Assembly (NCBI RefSeq): GCF_001687335.1
Contig: NZ_MAGO01000004.1
Coordinates: 150,001 to 213,334 of the forward strand
DNA from: Dissulfuribacter thermophilus
Lineage (GTDB): Bacteria; Desulfobacterota; Dissulfuribacteria; Dissulfuribacterales; Dissulfuribacteraceae
Length of the DNA: 63,334 nt
Direction of reading: 5' to 3'
Under the pieces are notes generated by a model that was not told the origin of the DNA, did no database searches, and saw only the letters and a program-made list of their open reading frames with translations. Shown one piece after another: positions 27,470-34,740 of the stretch (position 1 is the first letter of the stretch; each line of letters opens with the position of its first letter). The position numbers and the translations under genes were made by a program.

Positions 27470-28024
27470 ATGCCCAAACTGTGTTGGATCTTTTTGGTCG
27501 CCCTATACGGTACGTTTCTAACTGTTGATACCCAAGCTCAGCTTTTCTTCTACAGGGATTCGGATGGGGTGCTACACATTTCAAATGTGGCGCCCCAAAC
27601 CCCATTCCATACTAACCTCGATTATATAGAGGAAGCTGCTTATTCCTTTGACATTGACCCACTCCTCCTTAGGGCCCTTGTATTGGTTGAATCCAACGGT
27701 AATCCCAAGGCAATTTCAAGAAAAGGCGCCATGGGACTCACCCAGCTCATGCCAGGGACTGCTAAAGACCTTGGAATTGAAAATCCCTTCGACCCAAGAG
27801 AAAATGTGCTGGGGGGTGCCCGATACCTCAAGGAAATGCTAAATAGATTCCGAGGGGATCTCATATTGGCATTAGCTGCTTATAATGCCGGTCGCAATGC
27901 AATTGAACGTCATAAAGGGCTTCCAGACTATCCTGAGACCATTAGTTTCGTTAAAAGGGTGCTTGAGACCTGGAGAGAGCTAATAAAGAAAAAAGGGCCT
28001 CAATCGCATGAGGCCCTTTTTTGA
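27470..28024 (+). CDS. Secreted lytic transglycosylase (SLT domain)
   Basis: Cleaves peptidoglycan glycan strands in the periplasm. The 184-residue protein has a signal peptide (CWIFLVALYGTFLTVDTQAQ), a short DUF4124-like strand pair (LFFYRDSDGVLHISN), and the Slt70-type domain with catalytic Glu in LRALVLVESNGNPKAIS, then GAMGLTQLMPGTAKDLG and ILALAAYNAGRNAIE. It is co-transcribed with the transaldolase gene. The last codons are part of the terminator stem. Confidence 0.93.
   Translation: MPKLCWIFLVALYGTFLTVDTQAQLFFYRDSDGVLHISNVAPQTPFHTNLDYIEEAAYSFDIDPLLLRALVLVESNGNPKAISRKGAMGLTQLMPGTAKDLGIENPFDPRENVLGGARYLKEMLNRFRGDLILALAAYNAGRNAIERHKGLPDYPETISFVKRVLETWRELIKKKGPQSHEALF
27989..28022. terminator. 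Bidirectional Rho-independent terminator
   Basis: AAAAAAGGGCCTCA and TGAGGCCCTTTTTT form a 14-bp perfect stem around ATCGCA. The T runs on both strands make it bidirectional, serving the transglycosylase gene (whose stop lies at its edge) and the convergent 8-haem cytochrome gene. Confidence 0.9.
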
Positions 28025-28050
28025 TGTTCCTTGTTATCTAAGCTCAGCTA

Positions 28051-31000
28051 CTAGCGGAGAAATGCACCCCACAATTTTTCAAACAATGGACTTCCGCCTT
28101 CGCTTCCCCTTTCTGCTGCAACATATTCACCTGGCTCATTGATCTTAACCCACACATATGCGCCTACATGGGAAAGTACTTCGGCACCTTCTGCAGGCCT
28201 GAAGGCATAATCTCCATGAGACTTGACGTATACCTCAGGGTCAGCACCCTGGAATGGTAACTTAACAAACATAGTCTCATGGCCTTCACCTTCAACTCCG
28301 ACCTTCAGTATGTATCCTTCTACAAAGCCCTTTCCAGCAACATACACGAATTCCTTTGCTGGCTGGAACCCAAGCTCTGTTATCTCAGGCCTGATCTCCT
28401 CTGGCACGTAGAAGTAGTGCTTATCAGACCAAGGACCATTCACCACCTGTTTGAGATAGGTCTTGTTCAACTCCTCTTCAGTTAACTTGGCACCTAGCTC
28501 AGCAGCAATCTCTGCCCCTGTAATATGGCCTTCAGCAGTCATGTAGAATAACTCTTCAGCATGGTGCCTGCTGTGAGCCAATATTTCATCCTGTCTTGCA
28601 CCGAGGATGCTGAGGCCATTTGCCTCGAATTTATCAATGTAGATAACCTCTCCATCCACTACGAAGAATGGATCTGGGCCTTTTCCAGCTAAGAAGTCAG
28701 CCATAGCAGGAGTCGGCACCATGCCGGTCTTTCTCATATACTCTGCAAGACCCTCTTTTGTCTTAGCTGCCTCTGGATCAAAGGTAAGGGCCCTGTTCTT
28801 CTCCTCAAACCATGGTGGTGCCCATGGCAAGAAGCCTACGATCCTATCGGTGATACGATGTGCACCAGGATCCTTTGTGTAATCGCCGTGGCAATCGAAA
28901 CAGGACTGTGCCCCGAGTGCCTTCTCTGCAGGCTGTACTCCATGGCTGTCAGAGAAGTAATGAGCAGCTATAAAGAGCATGGGCATTGGATTGGACTCGC
29001 CTTCAGCCTTTAACACCTTTACCAAGGCCTCCTGCATTGCCCTTACGTCTTCTTCCCACCAGAGCTCAGGGAAGCCATCGCCTGTGTGGTCGAAGATCAC
29101 ATAGCCAGAATCCTTGAGCACTACCTTACCTACATTTGGATCCTGTGCCCATGTAGGATCATTGGGTGGAATGTCTCTAAGCTGGTCTGGTGTATAGACG
29201 TAGAATGTCGCTGCAGGCAGGAACTTGTCTATAGCAGCGTTGATCTCTCTTAGATACAAGACCTTGGTTCCACCATATGCAAGAGGATTATCAGCTAGGG
29301 CGCTCATTCCTCCCTCTGGATACGGATTGGCATCGACCCAGGTAAGAATGGTTATCGGGTTACCAATCACAATCTGAGGATATCCATTCTTGGAATTTGC
29401 CCAATACAGAGGCGGATAGACCTCATTGTCATGGGCTGGATCATAGGTTATTGGCACTCCAAGGGATTTTTGCTTTTCAAGCATGATCTGATAGAAGCTC
29501 TTCCAGAAATCGAACTTGGGATTGGTCATGAGACCATTCACGAGCTGGCCTGGATCGGCCTCGCTGCTCATCCAGAAATAATCCACCATCTGTGACATGA
29601 AATCCATTGGCTGAATGCCATTACCATCAGCATCGATGTGCTGTGCCAGCATATGGAAGTGCGGGATCCCGTAGCCTGGTGAAGTTCCATATACCGGTGA
29701 AAGAGCATAGTATGGAGGAAATGCCATGGCTGGGAAGTTGGAAAGACCGCCCATCAAGGTGTAATAGCCGAATCTGTTATCGAAGTTTGAATAATAACCA
29801 AGGGTGTCGTCAAAGGCCCTGAAACGCCAGGTACGTTTATATGGAATATGACATGTTTCACATGCGATCTCGGCTATGTGCTTACCAGCCACTTCCCCGA
29901 ATTTTTCTTCATGCTTTCTGGTGGGATTAGGCGCATCTGGATCCTGTCCGCTTAGATGGCAGCCTTCGCATGTCCTTGGCTTTGGATTGTTGTCAAGGTC
30001 ATTTCTCACCATATGGGCAGTGTCTGTCCCCTTGAGGAAGTTGTGCTTTGCTTCAACGTCACCCGTATATCTCAGATGGCATGAACCACAGCCCATCTTC
30101 TTCCCTGACATGTGGACGTCATAGCCTGAGGCTTCTGGATCATCTGTGAAGTTTACATATTGACCATTCTTGACCCAGTCAGCTGGCATTCCAAGGGCAT
30201 AAAGTCTTGCTCTGGTCCACTCAGAGTTGCCATGGTCCTTTGTCATCACATGGCACTGGCCACAGACCTTGACCCATTTCCATGAATCGACATCATCGGA
30301 ACCGCCAAACATTTCAATGTCGAGAGCTCCGTCGTCACCAAGGTCGGCCACGTTGTAATATGACTTTGCCTCCCACTCATCTCCATTCTTCACGATCTGC
30401 ACATAGCTGAGTGGCATGCCGTCATTATTGAGATCTAGACCCATTAGCTGTGCAGTGGGCATCATGTAGAAGAAGCTTGGCAAGAAATCATGCCTTGCAG
30501 CCATATTCTTTAAGGTATCGTATGGGATAATCCCATTTTCCCAATCAGCTATGACTTTGGTGAGATTGATTCCAAAGAATGCCTTGGGATCGAAGTATGT
30601 CATGTCCCCCTGCATAATCAGGCCGTAGGCATACTGAAATGCAGCCCAGCCCAAGCCTACGAGACCGCTATACTGAATTCCCTGACCCTCTACAAGTGGG
30701 GCGCGGACGAAATCTCTCACAGACGCATTTGGGTCGTCCCAATCAGTATAGATCTTACCAGGCTCATAGGAACGAAGTGGGAAAGGAATTGGTAGGAGTT
30801 GCCCAGTTCCTGGATCTCTAATTTCATAGCCGTACACGAATGAATTAAAGAACATTGCATTTAGATCATCCATGGTGGCCTCAGCTGGCATTAGGCCATT
30901 TTGCTTCATATAGTCCAGGATTTGGGCAAAAATAGCCCCAATGGCCTCCTGATTTGCCATTAACTTGGCCATCTCATCTGCACCACCGTTTGGATTGTAG

Positions 31001-32166
31001 GTGTATGCATCCTTTATTCCATTTTGGGTATAGATGTGAGGAGTAATACTTGGTGGTCCGTATAGTGCATAGGGTAGTGATTCCCCAGAGGGATCAATAG
31101 CCTTTAATCCGTCTGTCCAGATCCTGAAGAGCTCTCCTACATGGTCTTTTGGTAACATGCTAAGCTTGAAGAACTTGCTGCCTATTGGGCGAGTCATGCG
31201 CTGAATGTCATTGGTGTAGGAAAGGGCGCTTTCATTCAATACGCCTTCCTTAAGTGGCATTCCAAGGGAAATCTTAACCACCTCTCCATTTTGGCGTTCA
31301 GCAAAGATCATGAGCCTTGGCCTGAAGGGCTGCACCTTAAGGCCATCTGCTGCCTCATAAACAAATGGATTTGATTCAAGGTCTGGATCAATATGGCAGA
31401 GAAGACAGTCTGCCTCCATGACCCCACTCTTTGACCAGTCATGGCGCTTTGGATCGCCGTGATCAGCAACTGTCTCTTGAATAGACTTTCCGCTAATCAG
31501 AGACTGTGTCGTAGCATTGGGGCCATAGGTGTAGAAATCTCTATCGTAAGAGTGTGAAAGTGTGGCTTCAGCCTCTGGGCTGTCGTAAGGGGCCACAGTC
31601 CCATCAGACTTTACAATTCCTTCTGCTGGACCGCCGCCTGGGTGACAGCTGTAGCATGTCCCCAACTGATCTGCCACGCCCTGATCAAAGAAAAATGGCT
31701 TGCCCTCAGTTGAGAAAGGATTGTCCAAGGTACCTCTTTCCCTCTTAGCCGCCAACTGGCGGTAAGAGGGGGGTCACCATGCACCAAACTGTCCAGAACT
31801 CAGAAGGTGACCGTAGGCATTTGCCAGATATTTATAAAGAGTTCCGTCATTGTGTTCATCGCTCCAATGATCACTCAAATTTTCACCATTTGGTCCTGCT
31901 CCCTCTCTAAAATGGTATGCACGGGTTATGGCATCATAATCATGACACCTACCACATGTCTTTTTTGGGCTATATGCAGGTCCCCTCATATAAACCGACC
32001 CGTTTGCCGCCCGAATTACATCGTTTGGGTCTAATTGGTCCTTAATCGGGTTGCCATTTCTGTCCAACAAGGTCACAGCAGGATGTGCCATGACCATATG
32101 TGGGGCCACTACTAGAAGTAGAGCTACAAAGGACACAATACAACTTCGTAGGACATTGGTTCTCAT
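28051..32166 (-). CDS. Large octahaem c-type cytochrome with in-frame UGA (probable selenocysteine)
   Basis: From ATG 32166 a signal peptide (CIVSFVALLLVVAPHMVMA) and one haem site (CGRCH) are read up to a TGA at codon 131 (31774-31776), in GQFGAW-U-PPSYRQLAAK. The same frame then continues for 1240 codons with seven more haem sites (CYSCH, CLLCH, CGQCH, CGSCH, CEGCH, CETCH, CFDCH). The downstream part has only a TTG start and no signal peptide, yet c-type haem is attached outside the cytoplasm, so the haem sites make sense only with read-through. A SECIS-like hairpin directly follows the TGA. The 1371-residue product would be periplasmic or on the cell surface, the terminal partner of the upstream 12-haem lipoprotein and porin. 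Its electron acceptor or substrate is unknown. A haem-proximal Sec might be a ligand or redox group. Nonsense mutation is the alternative. Confidence 0.85.
31740..31773 (-). promoter_or_regulatory. Bacterial SECIS-like stem-loop after the UGA at 31774
   Basis: Read on the minus strand: three C after the UGA, then CCCUCUUA-CCGCC, loop AGUU, GGCGG, a bulged C, UAAGAGGG. That is 13 base pairs with one bulge. The loop begins 16 bases after the UGA and has a G as its second base, both within the known geometry of bacterial SECIS elements recognised by SelB. In a coding region such a stem is not otherwise expected. Confidence 0.8.
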
Positions 32167-32248
32167 CCTTTTCCCTCCTGAATTTGATATTCTTTATTAA
32201 GAAAGGGGTAAGAGAACTCCCAAACTCTTACCCCAAATCTTCATTGTT

Positions 32249-33166
32249 TTACTTTTCCTGTCTCAGGATAATGTTGGAATGACACCTCAGACAATCAGCT
32301 GTCGTGTGGCATACATTACATGACCTAAAGTTCTTTATAGCCTCTTCAGCATGTCTGGGTTCTGGTATAAAAGCGATCCAATCAGCTGCCTTGTGGGATA
32401 TTGGCTTCTGGCTCCTATGACAATCAGAACAGAAGCTTGCAACGTGGCATGTTGCACACAGACGTCTATCGTGGGTTGCCTCTACACCATGTTGAGTGGT
32501 CTTCCAATTGAAGATGTGATCTTTTGGTTTCTTGGTCCTGTGACACTCTTGGCAGAATTTCTTGTCCTTACCATGACAATATTCACAGCTCTTATCGAAT
32601 CTCGACTCAAATCCGTGATGCATGGCCCAATCGCCATGGTGGCTCTCAGGTGGAACATCCTTCCTCACCTTCTCATGGCAGGTTGCACATGACTTAGGAG
32701 CCTCCTCTCCATTGTGGCACTGCTGGCAAGTGGTCATTCGAGGCCATTCAATGGAATTGAGTGACTCAGCCTCTCCAAGGCCCTTATGGCACGTTGTACA
32801 CTCTAGTCCATCGTGTACTTCATGGCTAAAAATTACGTCTTCAAAGCTCTTTGGCTTCTCCTTTGCAGCCCTCTCAACCGAATAGTCCTTTTTTGAGCTT
32901 TCAACAGTATGGCACACCAAACAGTCTTCGTTGGGATTATCCATGTTTATCTCATGACATTCACCACACGTGTCCATAGAGGGATTTTGCATCTTGCCTT
33001 CATCAGTGGCTGTGTGACACTGACTGCACTCGATTTCATTTTCCACCACATGTAGCTTGTGGTTAAACTTAAGATCCCCTTCCTTCTTACAACCAGAAAG
33101 GCTTAAGCTTGATAGCGTTAATATGGCCAAAAACAGTATTGTTTTACTTATTATCTGACTCTTCAT
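32249..33166 (-). CDS. Dodecahaem c-type cytochrome lipoprotein
   Basis: ATG 33166 is chosen since a lipoprotein signal follows (ILFLAILTLSSLSLSGC, lipobox LSGC) and GAGGGG lies upstream. The remaining 280 residues hold twelve CXXCH motifs, in order CSQCH, CGECH, CLVCH, CTTCH, CQQCH, CATCH, CEYCH, CQECH, CATCH, CSDCH, CNVCH, CLRCH. Many His pairs suit c3/c7-type bis-His ligation (FNHKLHV, FSHEVHD). It would be an outer-membrane-anchored electron wire between periplasm and porin or on the surface. It starts 13 bp after the beta-barrel gene and lies 82 bp before the octahaem gene, so the three form one operon. Confidence 0.93.
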   Translation of the reverse strand: MKSQIISKTILFLAILTLSSLSLSGCKKEGDLKFNHKLHVVENEIECSQCHTATDEGKMQNPSMDTCGECHEINMDNPNEDCLVCHTVESSKKDYSVERAAKEKPKSFEDVIFSHEVHDGLECTTCHKGLGEAESLNSIEWPRMTTCQQCHNGEEAPKSCATCHEKVRKDVPPESHHGDWAMHHGFESRFDKSCEYCHGKDKKFCQECHRTKKPKDHIFNWKTTQHGVEATHDRRLCATCHVASFCSDCHRSQKPISHKAADWIAFIPEPRHAEEAIKNFRSCNVCHTTADCLRCHSNIILRQEK

Positions 33167-33179
33167 GACCCGCACCCCT

Positions 33180-34586
33180 CTACCAACTAAAGTTAATGGT
33201 TGCGGTAAGGGCATTTATGCCCGATACCCCAAATTCTCTGTAATAATCGTCTCTCTCATATTCATATTTGAGCTCTGCCCATTTTTCTGGAGCAAGCTTG
33301 TAGCGGCAAAGGCCATAGTACTGCTGAGCTGCCTCGCCCTCTATGAGGCTGTTGACATCTTCAGTTTTATAGTAAAAGCCCGCCCCAAGAGTCATCTTTT
33401 CAGTGATTTCCTGAGAGAGATCACCGTAAACCGAAGAAGATTCGGCTTCATAAAATTCGTCCCTGTCCTCGTACCATTTGCTATAGCCAAGGGTCAGCTT
33501 TGTGCCTTTAAACAGCCACCAATCCTCCATTGAAAATCCTAAGGTCCATCTATAAAAATTGGTGTTATAGAGGTCTTCTTGTGACTCATGACTTAGACGC
33601 CTGGCAGTAAGCCTTACAAATGCTGTAAGTCCCTCCTGCCTTGGAATGGGCTGGGACAAAGAAATGGTATAGTCTATATATCCTATCTCCCTCGCAAGAT
33701 ACAGGCGCTTTATATCCTGAGCTAGATTGTCACTTACAGAAAAGGTATAGTCATAGATAAAATCGTCTTCTCTTTTTACCTTGAAGCGCTTATAGACATT
33801 TATTCCAATTGTTGTATTCGTTTTGGGACAGGTACCAACAAGGTCTATATTCCAGTCTCTGTTGTGTTCATCTATCAATGCCCATCTGGCCCTTACCTTA
33901 AGATCTTCCATAGGGCGCCAGAGGATTCTACCTTCAGTTGAAGTCTTTTGATAAAAGACACTCTCTAGATGGAGGGTGAGATCCCTGTTCGGCCTAAAGG
34001 CCAGGTTGATTCCACCAACACCATCTTTGTTAAGATCTGAATAGAGCTGAACAATCGCCCCGCCAAATACCTCGAAATCTAACCAATCCCTTCCTACTGC
34101 AGTACCTCTGACGTAAATTCCATCAAAGTGTACTGTCTCTGCGCTGTAGGCATATTGACGGCCAAGCCTTAAATCAATACCTTCAAGAACATCCTTTTTC
34201 TCAAAATAGGCATAAAAGGCGTCAAGCCTCTGCCTTTGGTCACTTGATACATCCACATAGTCCTGAAAGATGGATCCAAAGGCTGTTCCATCAAGATCCT
34301 TTTGATACTTTCCTAAAAAAGAGAAGGTGACCCCTGTATTTGAGTGTGACATGTCAACACCCAGGACCTCAATAAGATCCTGATCATTTGAATCATCACT
34401 CAAAAGGTCACCATTTGGACTGTCAGACCACTGGAGTTTATACTGGGTATTGCTTCGAATCTCTGCATTTCCCCAGCTAAACTCCCGGGCCCATGAAAGT
34501 TGCGCACAAAAAAAGACCCCTAACAAAAACATTAGGGGTCCTACCACTAATAAGGAATGTTTTTGGAACTCCCGTCTTGCACTCAT
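33180..34586 (-). CDS. Outer-membrane beta-barrel (porin-like) protein of a cytochrome operon
   Basis: A signal peptide (LLVVGPLMFLLGVFFCAQLSWA) leads a 440-residue mature protein made of alternating aromatic/polar strands (LRLGRQYAYSAETVHFDGIYV, FTLGFSMEDWW-type strands) and closing with TATINFSW, an aromatic C-terminus suited to Bam assembly. The haem motif CXXCH is absent. By position with two multihaem cytochromes it is the likely barrel of a porin-cytochrome conduit, as in Mtr/Pcc/Ext systems, but it shows no sequence feature by which I can assign it to one of those families. GAGGATAGGGAG precedes the ATG. Confidence 0.85.
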   Translation of the reverse strand: MSARREFQKHSLLVVGPLMFLLGVFFCAQLSWAREFSWGNAEIRSNTQYKLQWSDSPNGDLLSDDSNDQDLIEVLGVDMSHSNTGVTFSFLGKYQKDLDGTAFGSIFQDYVDVSSDQRQRLDAFYAYFEKKDVLEGIDLRLGRQYAYSAETVHFDGIYVRGTAVGRDWLDFEVFGGAIVQLYSDLNKDGVGGINLAFRPNRDLTLHLESVFYQKTSTEGRILWRPMEDLKVRARWALIDEHNRDWNIDLVGTCPKTNTTIGINVYKRFKVKREDDFIYDYTFSVSDNLAQDIKRLYLAREIGYIDYTISLSQPIPRQEGLTAFVRLTARRLSHESQEDLYNTNFYRWTLGFSMEDWWLFKGTKLTLGYSKWYEDRDEFYEAESSSVYGDLSQEITEKMTLGAGFYYKTEDVNSLIEGEAAQQYYGLCRYKLAPEKWAELKYEYERDDYYREFGVSGINALTATINFSW

Positions 34587-34611
34587 GGCTCCCTATCCTC
34601 TTTTTTTTATT

Positions 34612-34631
34612 TTCCCGTGACGACACGGGAA
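34612..34631 (-). promoter_or_regulatory. Leader hairpin of the porin-cytochrome operon
   Basis: Perfect 8-bp stem TTCCCGTG/CACGGGAA with loop TCGT (minus strand), 26 bases before the start codon and followed by AAAATAAAAAAAA. A TTGACT about 75 bases further upstream might be a -35 element. The hairpin could stabilise the message or regulate translation. Confidence 0.45.
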
Positions 34632-34740
34632 TCTTTACCTCCCTAATCTACCCATCCGCGTTGCACGAATGAGTCCCTAAATAGGATGTACCCTTGTTCA
34701 CTAAGTTAGTCAACATGGAAATTTAAATTTATAATTAGGG

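Follow-up and report, generated by a model that had tools for sequence, protein, structure and literature searches.

The window is a 63,334-nucleotide stretch of the Dissulfuribacter thermophilus genome (contig NZ_MAGO01000004.1, positions 150,001 to 213,334). A multihaem cytochrome gene delimited by translation and orthologue comparison occupies 28051..32166 on the minus strand. The frame opens with ATG at 32166, runs through a signal peptide and a CGRCH motif to a TGA at 31776-31774, stays open in the same frame for 1240 codons with seven further CXXCH motifs, and closes with TAG at 28053-28051. This re-reading of the minus strand bears out the sequence-only reading of an octahaem gene interrupted by a UGA. 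Read through, the gene encodes 1371 residues including a predicted selenocysteine at position 131 (Sec131; codon 31774..31776), assigned from codon conservation and Sec/Cys interchange. The signal peptide, recognised by inspection, covers residues 1-27 (ending MVMA-HPA; 32086..32166). Orthologues likewise have a hydrophobic amino terminus followed by HP, and the window protein has no lipobox. One of the eight CXXCH motifs precedes the UGA (haem 1, CGRCH, residues 71-75, 31942..31956) and is invariant in the orthologue alignment. The seven that follow were located by translation and are CYSCH (haem 2, 171-175, 31642..31656), CLLCH (haem 3, 254-258, 31393..31407), CGQCH (haem 4, 635-639, 30250..30264), CGSCH (haem 5, 693-697, 30076..30090), CEGCH (haem 6, 733-737, 29956..29970), CETCH (haem 7, 769-773, 29848..29862) and CFDCH (haem 8, 1089-1093, 28888..28902), all on the minus strand. 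A strong two-way intrinsic terminator, read on both strands, lies 3′ of the gene at 27989..28022.

The Sec gene is the third gene of a barrel/12-haem/8-haem cluster, with the other two directly upstream on the same strand. The 12-haem cytochrome (32249..33214) carries a lipoprotein signal (LSGC) and is conserved beside the Sec gene; its true start is probably an internal ATG near 33166. The first gene (33180..34586) encodes 468 residues ending in a carboxyl-terminal Trp. This protein has no match in Pfam and no sequence match in the PDB, so its identification as a probable outer-membrane β-barrel is drawn from its signal peptide, strand-like sequence and synteny. The order barrel, 12-haem lipoprotein, octahaem protein is kept beside the giant relatives wherever the contig extends, and down to the intermediate forms. 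Judged by gene content, this arrangement is the layout of a predicted porin-cytochrome conduit. A terminator-like hairpin followed by a T run is present on the minus strand at window positions 34513-34542, close to where the barrel gene begins, and could possibly reflect attenuation or a wrongly chosen start codon.

Conservation of the UGA codon was followed in two genome sets. In 395 genomes of the phylum, each near-full orthologue has a single in-frame stop, which is TGA at the same residue, and the UGA is present in every orthologue that covers the site, at 53-84% identity and across many genera. From a scan of 84,980 species, 80 relatives were retained, with UGA in 27/27 giants that cover the site, which overlap in part with the genomes of the 395-genome search, and in 7/7 intermediates. 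The scan found no giant with Cys at this site, although one of its two search patterns had Cys there. A DNA pattern that left the Sec-site codon free matched 10 genomes, all with TGA; the pattern lacked a Trp codon and caught only compact forms with Phe or Tyr preceding the site. A lone in-frame stop is the usual sign of a decayed gene or a sequencing error. Dozens of independent assemblies, with identities as low as 53%, have this codon at this position and no further stop, and this explanation is refuted, its remaining probability being negligible. Recurrence of the UGA in independently sequenced genomes likewise means that it is not a sequencing error.

The residue that replaces Sec was read from more distant octahaem loci. 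The site is Cys in 33 of 46 such loci, UGA in 11, Leu in 1 and Tyr in 1, so that Cys accounts for 33/35 of those with a sense codon; one further relative (L043) has Ser. At least four Sec/Cys changes are required on a tree of the octahaem relatives in which the Sec column was treated as a gap. These replacements bear on the idea that a changed code or suppression inserts tryptophan or another ordinary amino acid at the UGA. Nothing specific favours it, Trp130 being merely adjacent, and it is opposed by the preference of the sense-codon homologues for Cys rather than Trp and by the presence of both a SECIS-type hairpin and sel genes. Decoding as an ordinary amino acid is extremely improbable.

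The hairpin (31740..31770, minus strand) had been noted from the letters alone and was confirmed by folding. A stem of 13 pairs, interrupted by one bulged C, starts 3 nt past the UGA, and the AGUU loop (31757-31754) begins 16 nt past the UGA. The folding energy is -23.6 kcal/mol, whereas shuffled sequences average -12.0 (z = -4.4), and none of 200 shuffles was equally stable. Published criteria for bacterial SECIS elements specify a loop of 3-9 nt with G among its first two bases, a stem of 4-16 bp, a distance of 16-37 nt from the UGA and a minimum free energy of -7.5 kcal/mol or lower (PMC13188914), and the loop, stem, spacing and energy of the window hairpin all lie within these ranges. An Rfam search of 28000-34700 with E values up to 1 returned no match. 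Many bacterial SECIS elements are dissimilar to one another.

Codon usage after the UGA points to constraint at the RNA level. The RQ(L/V)A segment is spelled CGC CAG TTG GCG in 52 of 63 distinct UGA genes, CGC CAG GTG GCG in 9 and CGT CAG TTG GCG in 2. The same region has 15 different spellings in 17 Cys genes, and the spelling of the hairpin core is gone from nearly all Cys genes. The five apical pairs of the conserved core (CCGCC-AGUU-GGCGG) are intact in 29/29 giants tested; the other 26 UGA genes all retain four of them, and 24 retain the fifth. Variants UCGACAGUUGUCGA, GCAGCCAGUUGGCUGC and UCGAGCCAGUUGGCUCGA have different bases but preserve the loop and stem through compensatory pairs. 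The lower stem of the window hairpin is unconserved across the family, and the full 13 bp are therefore partly particular to the window gene. Recurrence of the UGA together with this hairpin is far beyond chance expectation.

A two-protein arrangement, with the UGA as a true stop and the 3′ part translated from an internal start as a second operon gene, was also considered; a two-gene operon was once proposed for the Geobacter cytochrome ExtKL as well. The 3′ frame does contain a TTG start, but its product would have seven haem motifs and no signal peptide. The residues flanking the UGA on both sides are nearly invariant among orthologues, the Cys homologues are single proteins without interruption, and the hairpin is under constraint, all of which makes two proteins highly improbable.

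The machinery for selenocysteine insertion is present in the Dissulfuribacter genome (99.97% complete), which contains selA, selB, selD and a tRNA-Sec with anticodon UCA; selD carries an in-frame TGA of its own. The Sec-containing, 1371-residue multihaem cytochrome proposed in the sequence-only reading is supported by conservation of the UGA, by the Sec or Cys found at residue 131 in homologues, by the hairpin and by these genes. The reading of the UGA at 31774-31776 as Sec is strongly supported and is as secure as sequence permits.

The same genome encodes a second SelB outside the window (L185:4788-6770, genome G000 contig C11; above the TIGR00475 cut-off), immediately adjacent to a tRNA that scores above the Rfam tRNA-Sec threshold and has anticodon GCA (L061:1500-1589). 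Genes for a 1372-residue redox protein and a 204-residue MvhD-like protein, both named by eye, lie downstream, and a tRNA similar to the GCA-anticodon tRNA-Sec occurs in genome G310 (L160). Recoding of UGU/UGC as Sec has been reported in Aeromonas (PMC10778597), and by analogy the GCA tRNA and second SelB may recode UGU/UGC as Sec alongside the normal system. Three octahaem relatives (L104, L105, L106) have UGU (Cys) at the Sec site, and letter-by-letter comparison showed the SECIS-type hairpin to be intact in L105 and L106. Reading of UGU as Sec in these relatives was considered and rejected: a UCA tRNA-Sec of the ordinary kind is present in the L105 genome, where no tRNA-Sec with anticodon GCA scores above the cut-off. 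This makes it likelier that the intact hairpin is a relic, and it probably marks a recent change from Sec to Cys.

The relationship of the window protein to known cytochromes was assigned from profiles and fold models. Against Pfam and NCBIfam, no curated family reached its cut-off and only weak matches to haem regions were returned. The nearest NCBIfam model is TIGR04315 (octahaem tetrathionate reductase, OTR), with E = 4e-12 across haems 5-7 and a score of 45.8 bits that is below the family cut-off of 375. The OmcA/MtrC model TIGR03507 gave 19.1 bits against a cut-off of 209.3, and the ExtKL model NF040886 did not match. An AlphaFold model of a compact Sec relative (L100, from the isolate Ammonifex thiophilus; pLDDT 78, pTM 0.80) had a single significant Foldseek match in the whole PDB, the OTR structure 1sp3 (E = 6.8e-9), to which it aligns with Z = 11.0 over 340 residues at 22% identity. 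The model of the window protein is poor (pLDDT 56), and its top match, again 1sp3, has a Z of 7.1 that is too weak to count alone. In PDB sequence searches, neither the window protein nor compact profiles retrieved 1sp3, which was reached through the fold search and through true OTR members. Profile-profile comparison by hhalign with the true OTR family gave E = 2.9e-18 for the compact set and E = 3.4e-16 for the window set. Lys666 (30169..30171, minus strand) is invariant in the orthologues and falls on OTR Lys153 in the window-versus-OTR profile alignment. OTR has eight CXXCH motifs, and the lysine ligand of its active-site haem comes from elsewhere (PMC12285233). This ligand is reported to be Lys153 in the 2004 OTR structure paper. 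Taken together, the profiles and models place the window protein as a giant, distant member of an OTR superfamily wider than TIGR04315. This refines the sequence-only reading: the evidence supports a distant OTR relative encoded by the third gene of a conserved cluster rather than a stray cytochrome.

Selenocysteine also occurs in the true OTR family. One in-frame TGA was found in 19 of 48 above-threshold OTR genes of this phylum, and the site that is NNF-U or NNFC in OTR genes aligns with residue 64 of 1sp3. This residue, Cys64, is an active-site residue of OTR. The four TGA-bearing OTR genes that were read (L174, L177, L178, L182) all have Sec at the Cys64 position, in the motif NNF-U-IN(I) or NSF-U-ITP just ahead of haem 2; others have NNFC there. 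Sec131, too, falls in the interval from haem 1 to haem 2 that holds Cys64, and the spacing from haem 1 to the site is similar in the compact forms (43 versus 41 residues). The global hhalign alignment did not place Sec131 on Cys64, and the alignment of the haem 1-2 loop is ambiguous. Because the loop alignment is unreliable, equivalence of Sec131 with OTR Cys64 is only plausible. Elsewhere the same genome encodes an OTR-like multihaem protein whose corresponding motif, NSYCINI, has an ordinary Cys (L184:54-2060, G000 contig C5), and thus Sec and Cys versions of this kind coexist there.

Two further architectures were seen among the relatives. The 16-haem proteins L040:2068-6495 and L044:826-5250 have about 1475 residues and one Sec; they seemingly consist of a doubled octahaem unit with Sec in the first half only. 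The compact Sec octahaem proteins L100, L103 and L123 extend into a membrane cytochrome b region, which in L100 scores above the formate dehydrogenase gamma cut-off (TIGR01583) and in L103 and L123 was seen by eye. Compact Sec forms with this extension occur in Bacillota and Chloroflexota. The fusion to a formate dehydrogenase gamma-type cytochrome b speaks for the compact Sec relatives being respiratory reductases.

The reading that we favour with good confidence is that the gene encodes one secreted, 1371-residue Sec octahaem cytochrome of the OTR superfamily that acts as a conduit-fed terminal reductase. SelB and tRNA-Sec would insert selenocysteine 131 at the UGA by means of the downstream hairpin. 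Electron supply across the outer membrane is most likely because the gene is third in the barrel/12-haem lipoprotein/octahaem cluster; the 12-haem protein would carry electrons from the periplasm through the barrel to the Sec octahaem protein, a putative terminal reductase located at the outer membrane or beyond it. The substrate would be reduced at the lysine-ligated haem, as in OTR, while the adjacent selenol could attack a chalcogen substrate or bind it transiently until electrons from the haem chain released it; polythionates, polysulfides and selenium oxyanions would be examples of such substrates. Surface location, catalysis and selenol chemistry are the parts of this scheme that we infer. 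Judging from OTR and the Ext cluster, the most probable substrates are compounds of sulfur or selenium.

The protein could instead be an electron-storage or electron-transfer cytochrome with a genuine Sec, its selenol serving only to tune a haem, to ligate one or to shield the protein, with no enzymatic role. The conduit-like cluster, the ability of a selenol to ligate iron and the indirect nature of the case for catalysis are compatible with such a carrier. At near 19 kDa per haem, the window protein falls in the mass range of cytochromes that catalyse reactions rather than carry electrons (PMC7096707). Kinship with OTR, the conserved counterpart of the OTR lysine ligand and the quinone-linked cytochrome b to which relatives are fused also argue against a carrier, and a purely electron-carrying role is unlikely. 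A bolder extension of the terminal-reductase reading is put forward tentatively, at somewhat less than even chances. The window protein would be a surface selenoenzyme that ends the conduit, with the selenol and the Lys-ligated haem sharing a single active site for the extracellular reduction of a sulfur or selenium compound, and the compact Sec and Cys versions of this site would constitute a large unrecognised family of respiratory reductases in many phyla.

Standard gene callers split the Sec octahaem gene, and the larger part loses its signal peptide; a widespread group of respiratory cytochromes is therefore miscounted and misannotated. The natural Sec/Cys pair at a multihaem site provides matched variants for probing the role of selenium beside haem. 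The cluster further suggests that uncultured bacteria of the Desulfobacterota type carry out a reduction, possibly of sulfur or selenium compounds, at the outer membrane or outside it. Octahaem cytochromes with Sec have some precedent in the literature, as a 2026 review has one such entry, the GenBank-annotated Sec protein WP_331457571.1, named "tetrathionate reductase family octaheme c-type cytochrome" and listed with no motif given (PMC13188914). No above-threshold NCBIfam model covers the octahaem parts of the giant conduit-linked and compact UPPS/Cys proteins, and no description of either group was found in the full-text literature searched, a limited collection of papers. Sec in the OTR family proper and the Sec candidate ExtKL are thus already on record, and for the giant conduit-linked subfamily no description was found in that literature.

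The window protein resembles OTR (1sp3, Shewanella oneidensis; TIGR04315) in its eight CXXCH motifs, the fold of its compact relative, its counterpart of Lys153 and the presence of a residue with a thiol or selenol in the haem 1-2 interval. It differs in being about three times as long, with large insertions separating haem 3 from haem 4 and haem 7 from haem 8, in its Sec motif (GAW-U-PPSYRQLA compared with NNF-U-IN in OTR), in scoring far under the family cut-off and in belonging to a barrel/12-haem cluster. ExtKL (Geobacter GSU2937-2936, NF040886) is a five-haem Sec candidate that was found in 2007 without a SECIS element (PMC1914089) and received its name in 2018, with the porin ExtI alongside (PMC5877670). 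ExtKL and the window protein are both predicted Sec multihaem cytochromes with a UGA-split gene near the gene of an outer-membrane porin, a probable one in the window, but ExtKL is a 49.5-kDa protein with all five haems before the UGA, whereas the window protein has one before and seven after. Porin-cytochrome conduits include the MtrCAB, Ext and OmbB-OmaB-OmcB types. In gene order the window cluster resembles them, grouping a barrel-like protein, a lipoprotein multihaem cytochrome and a large secreted cytochrome. In contrast to these conduits, the probable barrel of the window has no sequence relation to any solved one, and the final cytochrome is a predicted Sec octahaem protein of the OTR superfamily rather than a protein of the MtrC or OmcB type.
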